Made by a program: the position numbers and the translations under genes
The notes under the pieces: generated by a model
Told to the model about the DNA's origin: nothing
Databases searched by the model: none
The model's input: the letters and a program-made list of their open reading frames with translations, nothing else
Part shown: positions 23,463 to 33,897 of the stretch, piece by piece
Position numbering within the stretch: position 1 is the first letter of the stretch
Layout of the letters: each line of letters begins with the position of its first letter
Origin: Natrialba chahannaoensis JCM 10990
Lineage (GTDB): Archaea > Halobacteriota > Halobacteria > Halobacteriales > Natrialbaceae
Length of the DNA: 64,000 bases
NCBI RefSeq assembly: GCF_000337135.1
Contig: NZ_AOIN01000100.1
Coordinates: 50,111 to 114,110 of the forward strand
Direction: 5' to 3'

Positions 23463-25484
23463 CTACAGCGTATCCACGTCGAGGATCATCACGACTTCAC
23501 CCTCACCGAGCACCGACGCGCCGCTGATCCCGGGTGCGCCGCTCAGGACGCCCTCGAACGGCTTGATGACGACCTCTTCCTGCCCCATGACGTCGGAACA
23601 GCGCAAACAGACCTGTCTGACGCTGTCTTTGATACGAACGACCATGTCGTCCTCGTCGGGTTCGCTGTCGGGGACATCGAGGCGGTTGCCAAGCGACAGC
23701 AGCGGGTAGACGTTGCCGTCGTGGGTGACGGTCTGACGCCCCTCAACGGATTCGATATCGACGTCCTCGAACTCGGAGATTTCGTCGATATTCTTGATCG
23801 GAACGCCGTAGGTCTCGTCGCCGACGGTAACGAACAGGACGCGGACGATCGCAACGCTGACGGGCAGCATCAGCGTAATCTCGGTTCCCTCGTCGGGTTC
23901 GCTCTCGACGTTGATCGAACCATCGACGCCGCGGACGACCTGGTTGACCACGTCCATGCCGACGCCACGGCCGCTGACCTCGGTCACCTCGTCGGTCGTC
24001 GAGAAGCCGGGGTGGAAGATGAGGTCGTACACCTCGGAGTCGTCGAGCAACTGGACCTCTTCTTCGGACATCACGCCCTTCTCGATCGCCTTCGAACGAA
24101 TCTTCTCCACGTCGAGGCCGCCACCGTCGTCTTTCACCGTCACGGAGACGCGGTCACGTTCGCGCTCGCCGATAAGCTTGATCGACCCTTCGCGAGGTTT
24201 GCCTTTCTCCTCGCGCTCTTCGGGCGGCTCGATGCCGTGGTCGACCGCGTTCCGGATAAGGTGCATCAACGGATCGCCGAGCTCGTTCAGGATCGAGCGA
24301 TCCATCTCGATGTCGACGCCCTCCATCTGGAAGTCGATCTCCTTGCCCTGATCGCGCGAGATGTCACGGACGACCCGCGGGAAGTTGCCGACGATCTTCT
24401 TCAGCGGCACCAGGCGGATCTCGAGAACCGTATCCTGGAGACTGGCCGTGATCTTGCCGTGCTCCTCGAGTTCATCTTCAGCTTCGACCAGCTCGTTATC
24501 TTCGATGATTTTGCGGAGCTTGATCCGGCTCGTGACCATCTCCTCGACCTGGTTGTACAGCTGGTCGACCTGTTCGACGTCGACGCGGATCGACTCGACT
24601 TCCTTGCTACTGTGGGTGACACTCGAACTACCCCCCGCCGAATCGTCGGACTCGGCGTCTGCGTCGTCCGAATCGTCTGCATCTGCCGTCACCTCGTCGA
24701 GAATGTCGTTCGTTACGTCCGTGACGCTGGCACCCTCCACGTACCGGTTGTCGTCGAAGAACGCCTCCACGGTGTCGCTGTCTGCGTCGTCGCCCGTCGC
24801 CGTCACGTAGGCGTCGAAAACCGCGTCGAACTCGCCTGCCTCGATCGTCTCGTTCGTCGGCACCGTCCGCAGTAACTCGTACTCGTCACCGGCCGCGTCG
24901 ATGACGAACATCGCATCGACCTGCGGCGAGCCACTGTCATCTAATTCGAGTGCCGCCCGGTAGACGGCGGTGTCGGACTCGAGTGCCTCGAGATCGATGT
25001 CATCGGCGAGGCCCTCGATTGGGATGTCGCGGCCGGTATCGACGGCATCGTCACCAGTCGCTTCGTCGCCCGCCGCTGCGGTCTCGGCCGAAGCGGACTC
25101 GCCGCCCTCGATCGACGCGCGGATCGCGTCGATCGTCTCCTCGGGATCGGTGCTCGTCTCGCCGGAGTCCGAGATTTCCTCGACCATCTGGGCGAGGTGG
25201 TCGACGCCGTTGAAGATGAGATCCATCCGTTCGGCGGTGACCGCGAGTTCGTCGTCGCGGATGCAGTCGAGCAAGTCCTCGATAGCGTGAGCGAGGTTGC
25301 TCGCCGTGGTGTAGCCCATCACGCCAAAGTTGCCTTTCAGGTTGTGCGCAACGCGGAACACTGTCTCGATGGCGTCGGAACTCTCGGGGTCGTCCTCGAG
25401 ATCGAGCAATGCGTTGTTTAATTTCTGGATGTCTTCCTGGCTTTCTTGGACGAAGGTGCTGGTGGCGTCGCTCACGCGGACCAC
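23463..25484 (-). CDS. cheA: chemotaxis histidine kinase CheA
   Basis: A 673-residue kinase with the full class II layout: a P1 HPt domain with phosphorylation site His47 (RVAHNLKGNFGVMGY), a long acidic linker holding a P2-like region (about residues 130-290), P3 dimerisation helices (about 315-370), a P4 ATPase domain (LIRNAVDHGIEPPEE; VKDDGGGLD; SGRGVGMDVVNQVV) and a P5 CheW-like domain at the C-terminus. It phosphorylates CheY and CheB. Its start overlaps the end of cheB by 13 bases, so the two are translationally coupled. Confidence 0.96.
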   Translation of the reverse strand: MVRVSDATSTFVQESQEDIQKLNNALLDLEDDPESSDAIETVFRVAHNLKGNFGVMGYTTASNLAHAIEDLLDCIRDDELAVTAERMDLIFNGVDHLAQMVEEISDSGETSTDPEETIDAIRASIEGGESASAETAAAGDEATGDDAVDTGRDIPIEGLADDIDLEALESDTAVYRAALELDDSGSPQVDAMFVIDAAGDEYELLRTVPTNETIEAGEFDAVFDAYVTATGDDADSDTVEAFFDDNRYVEGASVTDVTNDILDEVTADADDSDDADAESDDSAGGSSSVTHSSKEVESIRVDVEQVDQLYNQVEEMVTSRIKLRKIIEDNELVEAEDELEEHGKITASLQDTVLEIRLVPLKKIVGNFPRVVRDISRDQGKEIDFQMEGVDIEMDRSILNELGDPLMHLIRNAVDHGIEPPEEREEKGKPREGSIKLIGERERDRVSVTVKDDGGGLDVEKIRSKAIEKGVMSEEEVQLLDDSEVYDLIFHPGFSTTDEVTEVSGRGVGMDVVNQVVRGVDGSINVESEPDEGTEITLMLPVSVAIVRVLFVTVGDETYGVPIKNIDEISEFEDVDIESVEGRQTVTHDGNVYPLLSLGNRLDVPDSEPDEDDMVVRIKDSVRQVCLRCSDVMGQEEVVIKPFEGVLSGAPGISGASVLGEGEVVMILDVDTL

Positions 25485-26521
25485 CCCCGGAAGGCGTTGG
25501 TGATGCCCTCGGCAATTCGGTCCTTCGGGAGCACCATGTCGAGGTCGACTTCCTCGGCTGCCACCTTCGGCATGCCGTAGACGCGTGAGGTTGCCTCGTC
25601 CTGGGCAATCGCCTTCCCGCCGGCGTCTTTGATCTCGGCGAGGCCGGCTGCGCCGTCGGCACCCATCCCGGTCAGAATCACACCGGTGAGATTCCCGGTG
25701 ACCGTTTCGGCTGCGGTTTCCATCGTTACGTCGATGGCGGGCCTGACGTTATGGCGTTTGGGGCCGTTATCGTGGGAGACAGTCAGTCGTCCGTTCCGTT
25801 CGTTGGTCACCAGTAGGTGTGAGCCTCCCTTCGCCAGGACACCCTCGCCAGGGCCAACTGTGTCTCCCTCTCGGGCCTGTCTGAAGTCGTACGTCGTTCG
25901 TTCGTTGAGCCGTTTCGCGAATCGTTCTGTGTAGTGATCTGCCATGTGTTGTACCACGAGCACTCGGAGGCCTGCCCGCTGTGGAAGCTCGGACAGCACT
26001 TGTTCGACGACTCGCGGGCCGCCGGTCGATGCGCCGATGACGAGCGTCGGATCGCAGGGGAACTCGGAACTGACGCTGATCGTCTGGGACTGGTCCTTGC
26101 TGACCCGGCCAGTCTCCATCCCTGCGACATCTGCCTCTGCGACCGCCCGGACGCGGTCGACGATCGTCTCCTGCTGAGACCAGATGTTGACCGAGCCGTC
26201 GCCGGACGGCTTCGCCAGAAAGTCGACTGCACCGGCGTCAAGCGCGTCGAACGTCGCATCCGCGTTGCGCGTCGTCTGCGAACTGATGACGAGCATCGGG
26301 ATCGGGTTCTCGGCCATCACCTGCTCGATCACTTCGTGGCCCGTCAGTCTGGGCATCTGAATGTCGATCGTCGCCACATCGGGATCGTGGCGCTCAATGA
26401 GTTCGACCGCCTCGACACCGTCTTTGGCACGGGCAACGACGGTGATCCCGCCGTCCTCCAGAATCTTTCCGAGCGTCTCACGCATCACCGCCGAGTCGTC
26501 TGCAATTACTGCATCGACCAT
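25472..26521 (-). CDS. cheB: CheB methylesterase response regulator
   Basis: A 349-residue protein with a receiver domain (IADDSAVMRETL; phospho-acceptor Asp53 in VATIDIQMPRL; LAKPSG) and a C-terminal methylesterase domain with catalytic Ser in IGASTGGPRVVEQ, His in VVQHMADHYTERFA and Asp in GMGADGAAGL. It demethylates or deamidates transducers when phosphorylated by CheA. The start codon shares a base with the stop of a small upstream ORF (TGATG), and the 3' end overlaps cheA. Confidence 0.95.
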   Translation of the reverse strand: MVDAVIADDSAVMRETLGKILEDGGITVVARAKDGVEAVELIERHDPDVATIDIQMPRLTGHEVIEQVMAENPIPMLVISSQTTRNADATFDALDAGAVDFLAKPSGDGSVNIWSQQETIVDRVRAVAEADVAGMETGRVSKDQSQTISVSSEFPCDPTLVIGASTGGPRVVEQVLSELPQRAGLRVLVVQHMADHYTERFAKRLNERTTYDFRQAREGDTVGPGEGVLAKGGSHLLVTNERNGRLTVSHDNGPKRHNVRPAIDVTMETAAETVTGNLTGVILTGMGADGAAGLAEIKDAGGKAIAQDEATSRVYGMPKVAAEEVDLDMVLPKDRIAEGITNAFRGWSA

Positions 26522-26742: not shown

Positions 26743-26877
26743 ACTGGTTTGTAATGATCTCCGCATAAAGCGTTCGGCCGAACCGGCCGGCAAGAGCCGC
26801 TCGATCCGACGAAGACCACACTATCACCCGTGCTGGCCGTGTGAGTTATGTAGGCAGAGTTGAAACGACTCACTCGA

Positions 26878-27672
26878 ATGGCGGGAGCTGCTCGGCTGTG
26901 TGTGACAAATCAGAAAGGAGGCGTCGGCAAGACGACCGTCGCGATCAACCTCGCGGGTGCGTTGAACGAACTCGGACGTAACGTCCTCTTCGTTGACCTC
27001 GATCCGCAAGGGAACGCGACCGAAGGACTCGGCCTGCTCGAGGCCTACGACGCCGAACCGCCGTCGCTACTCGACGCGCTCGTCGAGCCGACGGCCGTCG
27101 AGCTCGAGGACCTCATCTCCACTCACCCGGAGATGGATGTCATCACGAGCAACGTCGATATGAACGCCGCCGAGTCCACGCTCGTCCAGGAACCCGACGG
27201 CGAGACACGACTCGACGCACTCCTCGACCGACTTGAGGCCACAGGTGAGTACGACGTCACCGTCGTCGACTGCTCGCCACACCTCGGCCTCCTGACCGAC
27301 AACGCATTGTATGCGACGGAGAACCTCGTGATTCCCGCGCTCGCCGAACCGACGAGCAAGCGGTCACTCGAGTTGCTCTTCGATTACGTCGGCGCGCTAG
27401 AGATGGACCACGACGTGACGATTGAGCCGCAGGCGCTGGTAGCGAACCGGATCGAGAACACGCGAGCGGCGACGGAGATGCTCGAGTGGTTCGACGAGGC
27501 GCTGCCGGATGTGCCGCTGTATCGGGTCCGGAAGCGCGTGGCGTTGCAGCGGGCGTTTGCCTCGGGGAAGTCGGTGTTTGCGGTGGAAGAAGAGACAGAT
27601 ATGAGCGCGGTGTTCATGGCGATGGCCGAGCAGGTAGACGAGCAGTTGCCACGACAGGAGATTCCAGCATGA
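26878..27672 (+). CDS. ParA/MinD-like ATPase of the chemotaxis cluster
   Basis: A 264-residue deviant-Walker ATPase: KGGVGKTTVAINLAG at the N-terminus, VLFVDLDPQGNATEG and VTVVDCSPHLGLLTDNAL. There is no DNA-binding extension and no ParB gene beside it. The ATG at 26878 is chosen over an upstream TTG at 26860. It overlaps cheW by four bases (ATGA), so it is co-translated with an array component. ParA/MinD homologues position chemoreceptor arrays in bacteria and archaella and arrays in haloarchaea, which makes polar positioning the likely role. Confidence 0.85.
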   Translation: MAGAARLCVTNQKGGVGKTTVAINLAGALNELGRNVLFVDLDPQGNATEGLGLLEAYDAEPPSLLDALVEPTAVELEDLISTHPEMDVITSNVDMNAAESTLVQEPDGETRLDALLDRLEATGEYDVTVVDCSPHLGLLTDNALYATENLVIPALAEPTSKRSLELLFDYVGALEMDHDVTIEPQALVANRIENTRAATEMLEWFDEALPDVPLYRVRKRVALQRAFASGKSVFAVEEETDMSAVFMAMAEQVDEQLPRQEIPA

Positions 27673-28874
27673 CTGACGACAGAGCACGTCGACTTCGAGA
27701 GATGCGCAACCGTGCGGCTGGGGGAGCACGTGAGACAGCGGAGCAAGACGACCCAGACGAGACAGCGCCAGAGTCTCCGTCCACGGACGACGACAGCGCG
27801 GATAGCGGTGACGAATCGGCGAGCGAACCCGACGAGCCAGTAGCGAGCAGTGACGAGGGTCCGGATAACGGTGACGGTGACGGCGTCGACGAGCAGCAGA
27901 CAGCAGACCCCCGTTCTGAGACCGAACAGGAATCGGACGTGACCGATTCGGAGGCCAATGAGGTGGAGACTGCGGATGCAGCGGGCGAATCTGACGCCGC
28001 TGGTGAGGGTAAGGGTGGGGCTGTTTCCCCCGCCGAGGAGACTGCCGAGACTACAGATACCGAAGTGACGGAGACGGACGACACCGACGTGTCTACAGAC
28101 GTGATCGACGACGATAGCGGCGCTGGCTCCGAGCACGACCCTGACGCTGGCACCGATTCCGACACCGACGCCGCCGTCACGCTCTCGTTCGACGAACGCG
28201 AATCCGGACCCGACGCAGACGGCCCGCTCGCTGCACTCGGCGGTGCAATCGCCAGCCAGTCGACCGTCGCCGAACTCACGGGGACTGGTGCGGAACCGAC
28301 CGTCGATGGCTCTGCGACAATGGCGGACACCGAGGGCTACGGCGACGCGACCGCCGCGCGAAAGGACGCCATGTTCGATCAGGGGAACACGCTGATCCAC
28401 TCGGCACACGACAGCGAGTCGACGATTCAGATGCTCGAGTTCTACCTGAACGAGAATCGGTACGCCATCGAAATCGACCGGATCAGCGCCATCGTCGAAA
28501 TGAAAGACATCACGCGCTTCCCGCGCGGTCCGACCGCCATCGACGGCGTGACGGACCTCCGCGGCGAGATCACGGGCGTCCTCGATCCGACGACGATGCT
28601 CGACGTCGAGCACAACGAACTGTCTGACAACCAGTACATCGTCGTGCTGGAACGCGACGACGATAAGCAGAAACTCGGCGTCCGCGTGACCGACGTTTCG
28701 CAGGCCGTTACCTACCACGACAGCCAGATCGACGAGACGGGCAGCGTCATGGACGCCGCCGGCGACCACCAACACGAGTGCGTTCGCGGCATCATCAAAA
28801 AGCAGGACGACGACGACCGAACGACGCTCGTCGCCTGGCTCGATATCGACGAACTCATCGCGAACATCGACTGA
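27669..28874 (+). CDS. cheW: CheW with long acidic N-terminal extension
   Basis: A 401-residue protein. About 235 residues of Asp/Glu/Ser/Thr-rich, probably disordered sequence precede a normal CheW domain (about residues 256-400: LEFYLNENRYAIEIDRISAI; VTDLRGEITGVLDPTTML; QYIVVLERDDDKQKLGV). CheW couples transducers to CheA. Typical CheW proteins have 140-180 residues, so the extension is unusual. It opens with a basic helix (RARRLREMRNRAAGGARE). The overlap with the ParA-like gene suggests the extension may be a landing site for that ATPase. Confidence 0.9.
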   Translation: MTDDRARRLREMRNRAAGGARETAEQDDPDETAPESPSTDDDSADSGDESASEPDEPVASSDEGPDNGDGDGVDEQQTADPRSETEQESDVTDSEANEVETADAAGESDAAGEGKGGAVSPAEETAETTDTEVTETDDTDVSTDVIDDDSGAGSEHDPDAGTDSDTDAAVTLSFDERESGPDADGPLAALGGAIASQSTVAELTGTGAEPTVDGSATMADTEGYGDATAARKDAMFDQGNTLIHSAHDSESTIQMLEFYLNENRYAIEIDRISAIVEMKDITRFPRGPTAIDGVTDLRGEITGVLDPTTMLDVEHNELSDNQYIVVLERDDDKQKLGVRVTDVSQAVTYHDSQIDETGSVMDAAGDHQHECVRGIIKKQDDDDRTTLVAWLDIDELIANID

Positions 28875-29077: not shown

Positions 29078-30718
29078 ATGCCCAGAACAGACGGTGGAGC
29101 GTCCCGTCTCGAGGCCGCTACCGACCCAACGGGAACCGGGTCGGCGTCGGTCACGAACGCGGACGTCGACGCCATTACGAACGCCGGCGTCGATCCCGCG
29201 AGCGTCGAGCGCGCGAGCGACCTCGTGTCACTGGACGCCGACGACGAGGCCCGACTCGAGTCGCTCTCGGAGATCCTCGCCGACAACCGTACAACCCTCG
29301 CCGCAGCATCCGCCGACGCTGCCCGCAGCGATCCTGCCGTTTCGAGTGCACTCGAGAACCAGCGAGCTGCGAGCGCCGACCAACTCGAGTCAGCCCAGGC
29401 CGCGCTCGTCGACGCCGCGGCGGCGGGGCGGACCGATGCGGACGCGTTCGCAGAGCGATTCGAGTCACCGGCTGTCGGAACCCTTCTCGCGGCAGGCCCC
29501 GAGGTGTACATCGGCTCGTTCGGTGCGTACTACGAGGAGGCACTCGAGGCGATTGCTGCGGATGTGAAAGCGGAAGTTGGGGATGCGGTCGACTCGGAGG
29601 TTGCAGCTGCATTCGAATCCGATACCGACACTGACACCGAAGTCGATCCCACAGACGATGTTGAGGCGGCAGTAGACGACGCCGTCGCCAACGTTGTCGA
29701 ACGGACCCTCTCGCTCCTGCGTCACAGTCTCGTCGACCAGCAGCTAGCGATGGAGTCCTACGCCAGCACACAGCGCACGCAGCGGGCAGCCGACAAGGAG
29801 CGTATCGCAGAGTACGAAGCGCAGCTCAAGGACCAGTTGGAGACGAAGCGAAACCGTGAGTCAGTCGGTGACCGGATTCAGGAGACGCTGAGCGAGGTTG
29901 CAGCCTCGACGGACGACGTGACCGATCGGACCGCAGCAATGACCGATCTCGCGGCCGAGCAGTCGAACTCGATGAACGAAATCGCGAGTGAGGTCTCCGG
30001 GCTGTCGGCGACGGTCGAGGAGATCGCCTCGAACGCAGAAGAGGTCAGCGCTACCAGCGAGCGCGCTGAGGAGATCGCGAACGATACGACGGAGACAGCC
30101 GAGGAGGCTATCGACCAGATCGAGGATGTCGAATCGGCAACTGATAACGTAACTGAGGACGTCGAGGATCTCCGCGAGAGCGTCCAGAAGATCGACGAGA
30201 TCGTCGACGTCATCAACGACATCGCCGACCAGACCAACCTGCTCGCGCTCAACGCCTCGATCGAGGCGGCGACCGCTGGTGAGGCCGGTGACGGCTTCGC
30301 GGTCGTCGCGAACGAGGTCAAATCCCTGGCCGAAGAGTCCCAAGAAGAGGCCAAGAACATCGAGCGGATGATCGACCAGATTCAGGCAGACACCGAAGAG
30401 ACGGTCGACAGCCTCGATACGGCAAACCAGCGCGTCTCTACCGGTGTCGACCTGGTCGAAGAGACGGTCGACAACTTAGAGCGCATCGAGGAGTCCGTTC
30501 AAGAAGCGAGTACGGGCATCCAGGAGGTTGCAACGGCGACCGACGATCAAGCCGCAAGCACCGAAGAGGTCGCGAGCATGACCGACACTGCGATGGACAA
30601 ATCCCAGCAGGTCGCCACCGGTCTCGAGGCCATCGAACGCCACGCCGAAACCGTCGACGAACTGATCAACGACATCGAAGGCGACGTTCGTCGCCTCTCG
30701 ACGGACGATCACAGCTAA
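29078..30718 (+). CDS. soluble transducer with degenerate (heme-less) protoglobin domain
   Basis: A 546-residue methyl-accepting protein without membrane helices. The sensor (about residues 30-235) aligns with the HemAT protein at 31453: RFESPAVGTLLAAGP-EVYIG matches [18 protein letters not shown], and both are followed by YYE and a VDQQ-AM segment. At the heme-ligand position there is Gly134 instead of His, and the distal FY pair is missing. The signalling domain (about 260-540) has the canonical hairpin tip [23 protein letters not shown]. It should signal through CheW/CheA but probably does not bind heme through the usual ligand. Confidence 0.85.
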   Translation: MPRTDGGASRLEAATDPTGTGSASVTNADVDAITNAGVDPASVERASDLVSLDADDEARLESLSEILADNRTTLAAASADAARSDPAVSSALENQRAASADQLESAQAALVDAAAAGRTDADAFAERFESPAVGTLLAAGPEVYIGSFGAYYEEALEAIAADVKAEVGDAVDSEVAAAFESDTDTDTEVDPTDDVEAAVDDAVANVVERTLSLLRHSLVDQQLAMESYASTQRTQRAADKERIAEYEAQLKDQLETKRNRESVGDRIQETLSEVAASTDDVTDRTAAMTDLAAEQSNSMNEIASEVSGLSATVEEIASNAEEVSATSERAEEIANDTTETAEEAIDQIEDVESATDNVTEDVEDLRESVQKIDEIVDVINDIADQTNLLALNASIEAATAGEAGDGFAVVANEVKSLAEESQEEAKNIERMIDQIQADTEETVDSLDTANQRVSTGVDLVEETVDNLERIEESVQEASTGIQEVATATDDQAASTEEVASMTDTAMDKSQQVATGLEAIERHAETVDELINDIEGDVRRLSTDDHS

Positions 30719-30751: not shown

Positions 30752-31279
30752 ATGGTATCCACGAACCAGACCAACTCCACACGATCGAACGCGACCGACG
30801 AGATGAATACCGACGCTAGCACCAATACCAGCACGAACACCAACACCAACACAAACACAAACACACCCGACGACATCTCCGTCCACGTACTCGAGTTCGA
30901 CCTCGGCGAAAACCGCTACTGTGTCGACATCGGCTACGTCGCGGAGATCGTCAACACGGACGAACTGACCACGATTCCGAACACACCCGACCACGTCGAG
31001 GGCGTGATGGACCTTCGCGGCGAGACGACGAAAATAGTCAACCTGCGAACAATCTTCGGCGAGAACGAGGACGACGAACTCGGGAATCGGATCATCGTCT
31101 TCAAACGCAAGCGTGATTCGACCGATCGAATCGGTTGGCTCGCTGATGAGGTGCGCCAGGTGCGACAGATCGACGCGACGACGGTCGACACCGCCGTCGA
31201 CGGCGAGGGAATCGCTGGGATCGTTCGACAGGAAGAGGAGTTCGTGCTGTGGATTGATCCGACGGACGTTCGCGTCTGA
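30752..31279 (+). CDS. cheW: CheW coupling protein, second copy
   Basis: A 175-residue CheW. A 40-residue low-complexity Asn/Thr stretch (repeats of NT encoded by a hexanucleotide-like run at about 30818-30864) precedes the CheW domain (VLEFDLGENRYCVDIGYVAE; VMDLRGETTKIVNLRTIFGE; VDGEGIAGIVRQEEEFVLWID). It lies between two transducer genes on the same strand, 33 bases after the first. Two CheW proteins of very different N-termini in one cluster suggest different array partners. Confidence 0.92.
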   Translation: MVSTNQTNSTRSNATDEMNTDASTNTSTNTNTNTNTNTPDDISVHVLEFDLGENRYCVDIGYVAEIVNTDELTTIPNTPDHVEGVMDLRGETTKIVNLRTIFGENEDDELGNRIIVFKRKRDSTDRIGWLADEVRQVRQIDATTVDTAVDGEGIAGIVRQEEEFVLWIDPTDVRV

Positions 31280-31452: not shown

Positions 31453-33027
31453 ATGTCTAGCAACCAGGAGGAGCGTCAGTCGCAGTTCAAAATCGACGCG
31501 AACAACAGACGGCACGTCGACGGAGAAGCACTCGCCGCACGGATCGGGCTTGATCGACGCGAAATCGAGTGGCGAAAAGAGTTCGTCGGCTTCGACAGCG
31601 CAGACGCGGACCGACTCGAGTCGATGGCACCACTCTTCGAAGAGATTGCTGACGACCTCGTCGACGAGTTCTACGCCCATTTGCAGTCGAACGCTGATGC
31701 GACCGCCGTTCTCAATTCCTCGTCGAAATCTGTCGATGCACTCGAGAAGACCCAGTACGAGTATCTCCTGGATCTCGGACGCGGTGCGTATGGAGCCGAG
31801 TATGCTGAGCGGCGTGCCAGAATTGGCAAGATCCACGATATGCTGGATATGGGGCCGAAGTTCTATCTCGGCGGCTACTCGATCTACTACGAGGGAATTC
31901 TGACGGCGCTTGCCGAGGACGCGATGGACGATCTTGCCAGTGAGGCCGTCGGGAGTGTGCCCGAAGCGGAGGCGGCCGAGGTGGACGGAACGGACACGTC
32001 GCAGGACGAGCCACTCGTTCCCCTCTCCGAAGCACAGGCGATGGTCGACGATGTCGTCGAGCACTCGCTTTCCACACTCAAACTGCTGAACGTCGATCAA
32101 CAGATTGCGATGGATACCTACATCGACGCCTACGCCGATGTCGAGGACGAACTCGAGCACCGACGCGAAGTCTCGAAGAACGTCCAGTCGTCGGTCAGTG
32201 ACCTGCGCGAGAGTTCGACGGAGGTCTCAGAGCGCTCCGACGAGATCAGCGACCTGGCGGCGAAGCAGTCCGACGCGATGGGCGAGATTTCGAGCGAGGT
32301 TGCCGGGCTGTCGGCGACGGTCGAGGAGATCGCTTCGAACGCCGAGGAGGTCAGCGCTACCAGCGAACGCGCCGAAGAAATTGCGAACGATACGACGGCG
32401 ACGGCCGAAGAAGCCATCGACAAGATGGGTGTCGTCGACGACGCTGCCGACGAGGTGACCGACGACGTCGAGGATCTCCGCGAGAGCGTCCAGAAGATCG
32501 ACGAGATCGTCGACGTCATCAACGACATTGCCGACCAGACCAACCTGCTCGCACTCAACGCCTCGATCGAGGCGGCGACCGCCGGCGAGGCGGGTGACGG
32601 GTTCGCGGTCGTCGCAAACGAGGTCAAATCCCTGGCCGAAGAGTCCCAAGAAGAGGCCAAGAATATCGAGCGGATGATCGACCAGATTCAGGCAGACACC
32701 GAAGAGACAGTCGACAGTCTCGAGACCGCGAACGAGGAGATCGAGAGCGGTGTTGGCCTGGTCGAGGAGACGGTCGACAACTTAGAGCGCATCGAGGAGT
32801 CCGTTCAGGAGGCGAGTACGGGCATCCAGGAGGTCGCAACGGCGACCGACGATCAAGCTGCGAGTACTGAGGAGGTCGCGAGCATGACAGATACCGCGAT
32901 GGAACAGTCACACGAGGTTGCGACCGAAATCGAGGCAATCGTCGATCAGAACGAGCAGGTTGAAGGCATCGTCGACGAGATCGAGTCCGAAGTCGACCGG
33001 CTCGCCGACGACACGCACTCGACGTAG
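31453..33027 (+). CDS. hemAT: HemAT-type aerotaxis transducer
   Basis: A 524-residue soluble transducer. The protoglobin domain (about residues 30-160) has the proximal heme ligand His128 in [20 protein letters not shown] and the distal Tyr74 in DEFYAHLQ, as in HemAT proteins that bind O2. An acidic linker leads to the signalling domain (about 230-510) with the hairpin tip [20 protein letters not shown]. The ATG at 31453 follows a TATA-like stretch at about 31421. The signalling half is nearly identical at DNA level to the transducer at 29078. Confidence 0.93.
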
Positions 33028-33144: not shown

Positions 33145-33897
33145 TCAGTCCGTAGACTGCACCGCCCCGGACGTGGCATGGTCGGTACTCGAACTCGAGT
33201 CCGTCTCAGTTGTCGCGGCTCGGTCGTCTTCGGCATCAGACAGCGCGTCCGTACTCCGGAGCACCAGTCCGCCGAAGCCGGCGAGCCAGACGAAATCAAG
33301 GTAGGTCGCGAGCGTCTGTCCGACGAAGGCGTCGGTGAATCCGAGATTCTGTGCGGAGAGCATCCCGGTTGCGAGGAGGCCAACGAAGACGAGGACGGTC
33401 AGGTTCTTGAGCCGCCCGTACAGGAGCGTGCGCTCGCTGCTTACGGTTTGTGCCTCGCGTGCAAGCGGACCGTACAGGGTGGCCACCATCACACCGACGC
33501 CAGCGATGATCGCAAGCGAGGCAACGGTGCCCGCCGCGCCGGCAAGTATCCAGCTTCCAACAGTCGCCCAGAGGCTCAGCAGAATCCCACCGAAAGTTGT
33601 GAGCGTGTACCGTCGTTCCGCTCCCGAGACGGTCTCGATCACGTAACAGACCGCGCCCCAGGCGACAGAGTAACCGAGGAATCGTACGAGAGACTCGTCA
33701 CGCCCGGTCGTCGATACGGGCAGGACACCTGCGGCCATGAGCAGGTACGCGGCGCTCATCGCACCACAGGCAACGACGACCGCATACCCGCAGGCCCGCG
33801 ACTCGACCTCAAGTCGACGGGTCCAGAGCAGAAAGATGGCCGTCATCACTGCAAGAATCGTGCTCGTTAGTACGAACGTCGTCGTGTGTTCGATCAT
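33145..33897 (-). CDS. sensory-rhodopsin-II-like seven-helix protein lacking the retinal lysine
   Basis: A 250-residue, seven-helix membrane protein that can be aligned without renumbering to NpSRII (alignment made from memory). Homology is clear in YGRLKNLTVL (start of helix F), in YLDFVWLAGFGGLVLRS (helix G) and in Arg72 of helix C. The residues that make an opsin photoactive are gone: Lys205 is Leu, Asp75 is Gly, Trp76 is Tyr, Trp171 is Phe, Tyr174 is Leu, Trp178 is Gly and Thr204 is Trp. Only one lysine (residue 164) exists in the protein. Tyr199 and Asp201 remain. It lies 87 bases downstream of an HtrII-like transducer, on the same strand, in the usual htr-sop order. Confidence 0.85.
   Translation of the reverse strand: MIEHTTTFVLTSTILAVMTAIFLLWTRRLEVESRACGYAVVVACGAMSAAYLLMAAGVLPVSTTGRDESLVRFLGYSVAWGAVCYVIETVSGAERRYTLTTFGGILLSLWATVGSWILAGAAGTVASLAIIAGVGVMVATLYGPLAREAQTVSSERTLLYGRLKNLTVLVFVGLLATGMLSAQNLGFTDAFVGQTLATYLDFVWLAGFGGLVLRSTDALSDAEDDRAATTETDSSSSTDHATSGAVQSTD

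Follow-up and report, generated by a model that had tools for sequence, protein, structure and literature searches.

Globin-coupled sensors are treated by definition as heme gas sensors, and in surveys an archaeal receptor that has a protoglobin domain is counted as sensing O2. The closest described system is HemAT (HemAT-Bs and HemAT-Hs; PF11563 + PF00015), a soluble receptor with an N-terminal protoglobin fold, dimer helices that end in VDQQ and an MCP hairpin; a recent review assigns the binding of heme and O2 in HemAT-Bs to His123, Tyr70 and Thr95 (PMC13401364). The HemAT of B. subtilis, an ethanol receptor that still holds heme, offers a precedent for small-molecule signalling without use of the heme, its globin domain binding ethanol without involving the heme (PMC7542364). 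Non-heme globin sensors are themselves already known from RsbR of Gram-positive stressosomes, which lacks the heme and O2 residues that its heme-binding relatives have (PMC4976288). Among chemoreceptors we found none reported: a search of openly available papers returned no report of Nmag_2884 or of a His-less HemAT-like chemoreceptor clade.

Here we describe such a receptor (hereafter the target) from the core chemotaxis cluster of a 64,000-nucleotide stretch of Natrialba chahannaoensis JCM 10990 DNA, the whole of which we refer to as the window. The cluster runs CheD, CheA and CheB on one strand, then a ParA-like ATPase, CheW1, the target, CheW2, a HemAT, a retinal-free opsin homologue and a HAMP-MCP, and then CheR, CheY and CheC. 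As the initial annotation had stated, the target frame is intact with a full signalling domain: there is no internal stop over 546 aa, and the MCPsignal domain (Pfam PF00015) is complete at 160.9 bits. The ATG start is backed by an N-terminus, M[PS]R[TS]DGG, that is common to orthologues. The protoglobin profile (PF11563) matched residues 42-231 at 22.4 bits, which falls below the Pfam cut-off of 25 and compares with 105.9 bits for the neighbouring HemAT; an architecture of protoglobin fold plus MCP signalling domain was nevertheless recovered from Pfam, PDB profile alignment, AlphaFold2 and Foldseek together. The target resembles RsbR in having a globin-fold signalling domain without heme residues, as judged for the target from its model, and differs from it in that RsbR is bacterial, a separate case, and signals through a stressosome STAS domain; the target has neither a STAS output nor stressosome partner genes, its output being MCPsignal and its neighbours che genes.

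Table. Coordinates within the window of the target, its parts and the neighbouring genes.
Feature	Coordinates	Strand	Remarks
Target ORF, soluble chemoreceptor; protoglobin-like input domain without the heme ligands	29078..30718	+	546 aa
Protoglobin-like domain, ~residues 29-231	29162..29770	+	alignments, PDB profile, AlphaFold2 model, fold match
Gly134 codon, column of the proximal heme His	29477..29479	+	position computed from ATG at 29078
Four-helix-bundle end of globin domain (VDQQ) and extended coiled-coil linker	29732..30001	+	sequence comparison
MCP signalling hairpin of target	30002..30718	+	83% identical to neighbouring HemAT's hairpin
CheA (23463-25484) and CheB (25472-26521)	23463..26521	-	divergent from target row
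ParA/Soj-like ATPase, first in row ParA-CheW1-target-CheW2	26860..27672	+	
CheW1, long acidic N-terminal region	27669..28874	+	
CheW2	30752..31279	+	34 nt after target
Canonical HemAT, proximal His128, comparison protein	31453..33027	+	
Opsin homologue, Leu at retinal lysine	33145..33897	-	best PDB match sensory rhodopsin II

Evaluating the heme site of the target, we found that His128 of the neighbouring HemAT (numbered from its ATG at 31453) shares its column in HemAT alignments with Gly134 of the target, and that HemAT-Bs His123 falls in the same column in an independent PDB profile alignment, in agreement with the annotated replacement of the heme histidine by glycine. The distal FY pair of the B helix (Phe69-Tyr70 in HemAT-Bs), likewise first noted as absent, is Ser78-Ala79 here, with Ala79 in place of distal Tyr70. 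Two further losses had gone unmentioned: Thr95 of HemAT-Bs is Ala106, and the F-helix signature RARIGK is missing, with R116 kept in the clade and most other HemAT-invariant F-helix residues gone. Judging from these alignments, both the proximal and the distal sides of the heme site are lost in the target, which is otherwise homologous to HemAT over the entire domain and retains GPxxY (GPEVY at 140-144, ending in Tyr144), G146, YYE (151-153) and VDQQ, the motifs that the initial annotation had listed as kept. Orthologues occur in six further Natrialba genomes and in four other genera, which rules out a sequencing error or lone mutation.

Relatives were gathered from 392 genomes of the order and 125 of the family, plus named contigs, and yielded 129 protoglobin-domain matches, of which 95 carry His at the heme column and the remainder with a residue there carry Gly, Ala, Glu, Pro or Asp. 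A tree of 96 rows revealed that the orthologue search proposed at the outset leads to one supported clade: the 23 His-less sequences group together (bootstrap/SH-aLRT 100/100) and the other 73 rows are haloarchaeal HemATs, such that His occupies the heme column in 73 of 73 HemATs and in 0 of 23 clade members, a pattern that is more than chance. Two branches make up the clade, a target type of 15 rows with Gly, Ala, Glu or Pro at the His column (support 100/98) and an Asp type of 8 rows with an invariant Asp there (98/92). Because every other protoglobin that we examined, bacterial HemAT among them, has the His, outgroup logic indicates a single loss of the proximal His.

Clade members were found only in the family of the window, Natrialbaceae, with the target type in at least 15 and the Asp type in at least 9 of the 125 family genomes when the best candidates per genome were scored (one of the nine Asp-type genomes, G393, being assigned by score alone). 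When the whole order was searched by profile, the sequences confirmed as target type or Asp type outscored all other matches, bar one partial Asp type at 138 bits, and no genome outside the family came within the score band of the two types. The target clade spans five genera, and the named loci nearest to the window are those of Natrialba sp. SSL1, N. hulunbeirensis, N. asiatica and N. aegyptia. The genome studied here holds one target type, one Asp type and two normal HemAT-like receptors. Its Asp-type paralogue (L003; contig C44, L136:5616-7124) clears the Pfam Protoglobin cut-off at 43.3 bits, and Asp stands at the heme-His column in eight of eight of its relatives.

Structure prediction and fold comparison, the first check that had been proposed, agreed with a globin fold. 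AlphaFold2 on an alignment of 15 sequences gave a monomer model of the target domain with a pLDDT of 89.1 and a pTM of 0.79, whereas the same protocol gave 80.1 and 0.70 for the HemAT of the window, with the surroundings of the F helix less certain, possibly because heme is missing from the model. The top Foldseek matches of the target model were HemAT-Bs 1or6 and 1or4, with a probability of 1.00 and TM-scores of 0.77 and 0.76 by target length, although E-values were weak (0.037-0.04) despite the high probability and TM-score. Mean residue volume at the lost HemAT-invariant columns drops from 156 A3 in HemAT to 127 A3 in the clade (118 in the target), while at kept columns it is steady (150 to 148 A3). 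Alanine accounts for 8% of the domain in HemAT versus 20% in the target clade (25% in Natrialba), and aromatics for 14% versus 7%. The pocket of the target therefore looks rebuilt with alanine, and these shifts would be more easily reconciled with helices that pack more closely in a fold free of heme than with a heme cavity left vacant. In the Asp type, volume and aromatic content stay close to those of HemAT, and a cavity may persist there.

The globin domain of the target is under purifying selection, with dN/dS between Natrialba species of 0.24-0.45 versus 0.14-0.27 for HemAT in the same genomes, a roughly twofold difference that reflects some relaxation. Measured from VDQQ to the hairpin (LSATVEE), the linker is ~13-39 aa longer in the target clade than in HemAT and comes to 90, 97, 104 or 111 aa in orthologues, lengths that are all 6 mod 7 and hold for 15 of 15 target-type members, the target itself having 90; the corresponding lengths are 72, 73 or 77 in HemATs and 73 in the Asp type. 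On the tree, the linker changed length at least three times independently, each time by a multiple of 7, and the added residues form YE-rich heptads such as EYESRLEEYESKLEEYE. The chance of all changes being heptads under random indels is ~1/340, a rough guide given that the pattern was sought after the sequences looked heptad-like. We read this pattern as a probable sign that selection preserves the register of the coiled coil and, with it, signal transmission.

Regarding the hairpin, dS between the target hairpin (30002-30718) and that of the HemAT in the same genome was ~0.40-0.53, and dS of orthologues between species was 0.52-0.77. As the within-genome value is as low as or lower than that between species, it suggests gene conversion or exchange between target and HemAT hairpins. 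In draft genomes the target gene sometimes appears shortened (471 aa in L006/L035 and 429 aa in L009/L036) within the stretch that is nearly identical to HemAT, and a run of unread bases coincides with the L009 truncation; this suggests assembly trouble rather than genuine truncation.

From these comparisons, we consider it fairly probable that the target is a heme-free globin-fold chemoreceptor that answers another cytoplasmic signal and is still wired to CheA. The initial description, of a globin fold reused as a heme-free sensor, stands as regards loss of the ligands, the fold and an intact transducer kept under selection; that no heme is bound is strongly indicated by the sequences and the model, and that something other than O2 is sensed is plausible. 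The proximal His would have been lost once in a HemAT-type ancestor within Natrialbaceae and the distal O2-binding residues would have eroded too, making O2 sensing in the HemAT manner presumably impossible. On the target branch, as sequence and AlphaFold2 model suggest, the helices would have been repacked with alanine such that the domain folds without its cofactor. The dimer-forming C-terminal helices, the heptad-phased linker and the CheA/CheW-binding hairpin all appear to be retained, so that the CheW of the adjacent gene should still relay shape changes of the input domain to CheA. The most likely trigger would be a small amphipathic molecule lodging between the helices, for which ethanol in B. 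subtilis HemAT offers a lead, or else the cytoplasm's physical state; we infer both the signalling competence of the target and the nature of its signal.

Positions of the former pocket differ between species, and the clade has no conserved polar residue that would point to a new site for a ligand; this argues against one pocket ligand common to all members and fits a sensor-less role equally. Such a role is the main rival to our reading, unlikely in our view and yet deserving real weight: the domain would bind nothing, and the receptor would play a structural or tuning part within the array, setting the CheA baseline together with CheW2 and mixing with HemAT or other receptors in trimers of dimers or forming a heterodimer via the shared helices. 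The alanine-rebuilt pocket also agrees with it, as do a hairpin 83% identical to that of the same-genome HemAT, with the exchange that the low within-genome dS suggests, and a constant pairing with cheW2, which lies immediately 3' of the target gene at each of the 10 loci whose flanks extend far enough, including those with ParA-CheW1 inverted. A passive domain need not, on the other hand, hold a full globin fold under purifying selection across the clade, nor a heptad-phased linker. The target loci of three genera (L127, L128 and L134) also have no HemAT within ~10 kb, other protoglobin receptors lying elsewhere in those genomes, so that the target is not tied to a neighbouring HemAT partner. 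At three loci whose genomes lack the target gene at this place (L124, L125 and L126), CheW1 and CheW2 are followed by HemAT.

We regard as distinctly improbable that the target is still a heme sensor, with heme held through Tyr144 or a partner His, or with a different tetrapyrrole bound. Of the residues near the pocket that might supply an oxygen ligand, only Tyr144 (Tyr133 of HemAT-Bs, near the heme) is conserved; it is Tyr in 14 of the 15 target-type members and Phe in one and could in principle coordinate iron. Site-swapped ligation is known in another globin-coupled sensor (PMC4476040). An alternative heme histidine, which the initial annotation had named as grounds for rejecting its claim, was sought and none is conserved: the column table of the 15 target-type rows contains no conserved His, Cys or Met column, and the L012 orthologue has neither His nor Cys within the domain. 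Against retained heme there further stand the joint loss of Tyr70, Thr95 and most HemAT-invariant F-helix residues and the shrinkage in volume where heme would sit. The histidine of LLRHS in the target was rejected as a ligand, as it is confined to a subgroup made up of the target and three relatives (L006, L007 and L008), with other residues elsewhere.

That the target is a HemAT duplicate being lost is very improbable and already disfavoured, for its relaxed constraint relative to HemAT, patchy presence (at least 15 of 125 family genomes) and truncated draft copies are outweighed by a dN/dS well under 1, intact copies where the genome is nearly complete, as in G071 (taken to be N. magadii), an old clade of five genera, linker indels in heptads only, and truncations that lie within a hairpin near-identical to the neighbouring gene and, for L009, at unread bases, pointing to assembly trouble.

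Extended to the clade as a whole, our heme-free reading becomes more tentative: it is possible, though short of probable, that these sequences make up an archaeal chemoreceptor class in which a globin was converted once to a heme-free receptor for another cytoplasmic signal, and in which the Asp-type sister moved to another ligand or metal via its invariant Asp. The clade is in any case a subset of protoglobin receptors that very probably cannot be O2 sensors, and it provides a single mapped His loss with His-bearing neighbours in the same cluster as controls, a natural test of globin dimer signalling once heme is removed, and a second case, besides stressosome RsbR, of globin reuse without heme.

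Lysine-less opsin relatives (ORPs) were described in N. magadii in 2012 (PMC3403918), and an N. magadii ORP tested for retinal binding in 2016 showed no retinal absorption (PMC4915679). By its sequence, the opsin homologue of the window is a group-B ORP in the sense of the latter study, a group with Leu or another hydrophobic residue at the retinal-lysine site (PMC4915679). Like the target, ORPs are related to sensors but lack the cofactor, and they sit in the same gene cluster; their fold is unrelated. The initial annotation had joined the two as sensors that shed their cofactors together, a pairing that did not survive comparison across loci, where they occur separately: the opsin homologue is absent from ~10 kb around the target genes of the three other genera named above, it is present in G232 (L124) at a locus without the target gene, and its association with target-bearing loci, among those examined, is confined to Natrialba. 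The pairing is thus incidental, and a functional tie between the two was rejected by gene order. A second copy of the opsin homologue is present in the clusters of L135 (taken to be N. magadii) and G232, the window having one.

Among minor observations, CheW1 carries a very acidic extension of ~250 residues ahead of its CheW domain. The gene beside or near the Asp-type gene is mutS in three genera, a neighbour that was uninformative as a ligand clue. The R[TS]DGG motif, located in the target N-terminus (29078-29098) as part of the conserved M[PS]R[TS]DGG, recurs as RTDGG in the disordered G-H loop of four orthologues (L012, L015, L017 and L019), and TDGG is present in the G-H loop of one HemAT (L020).
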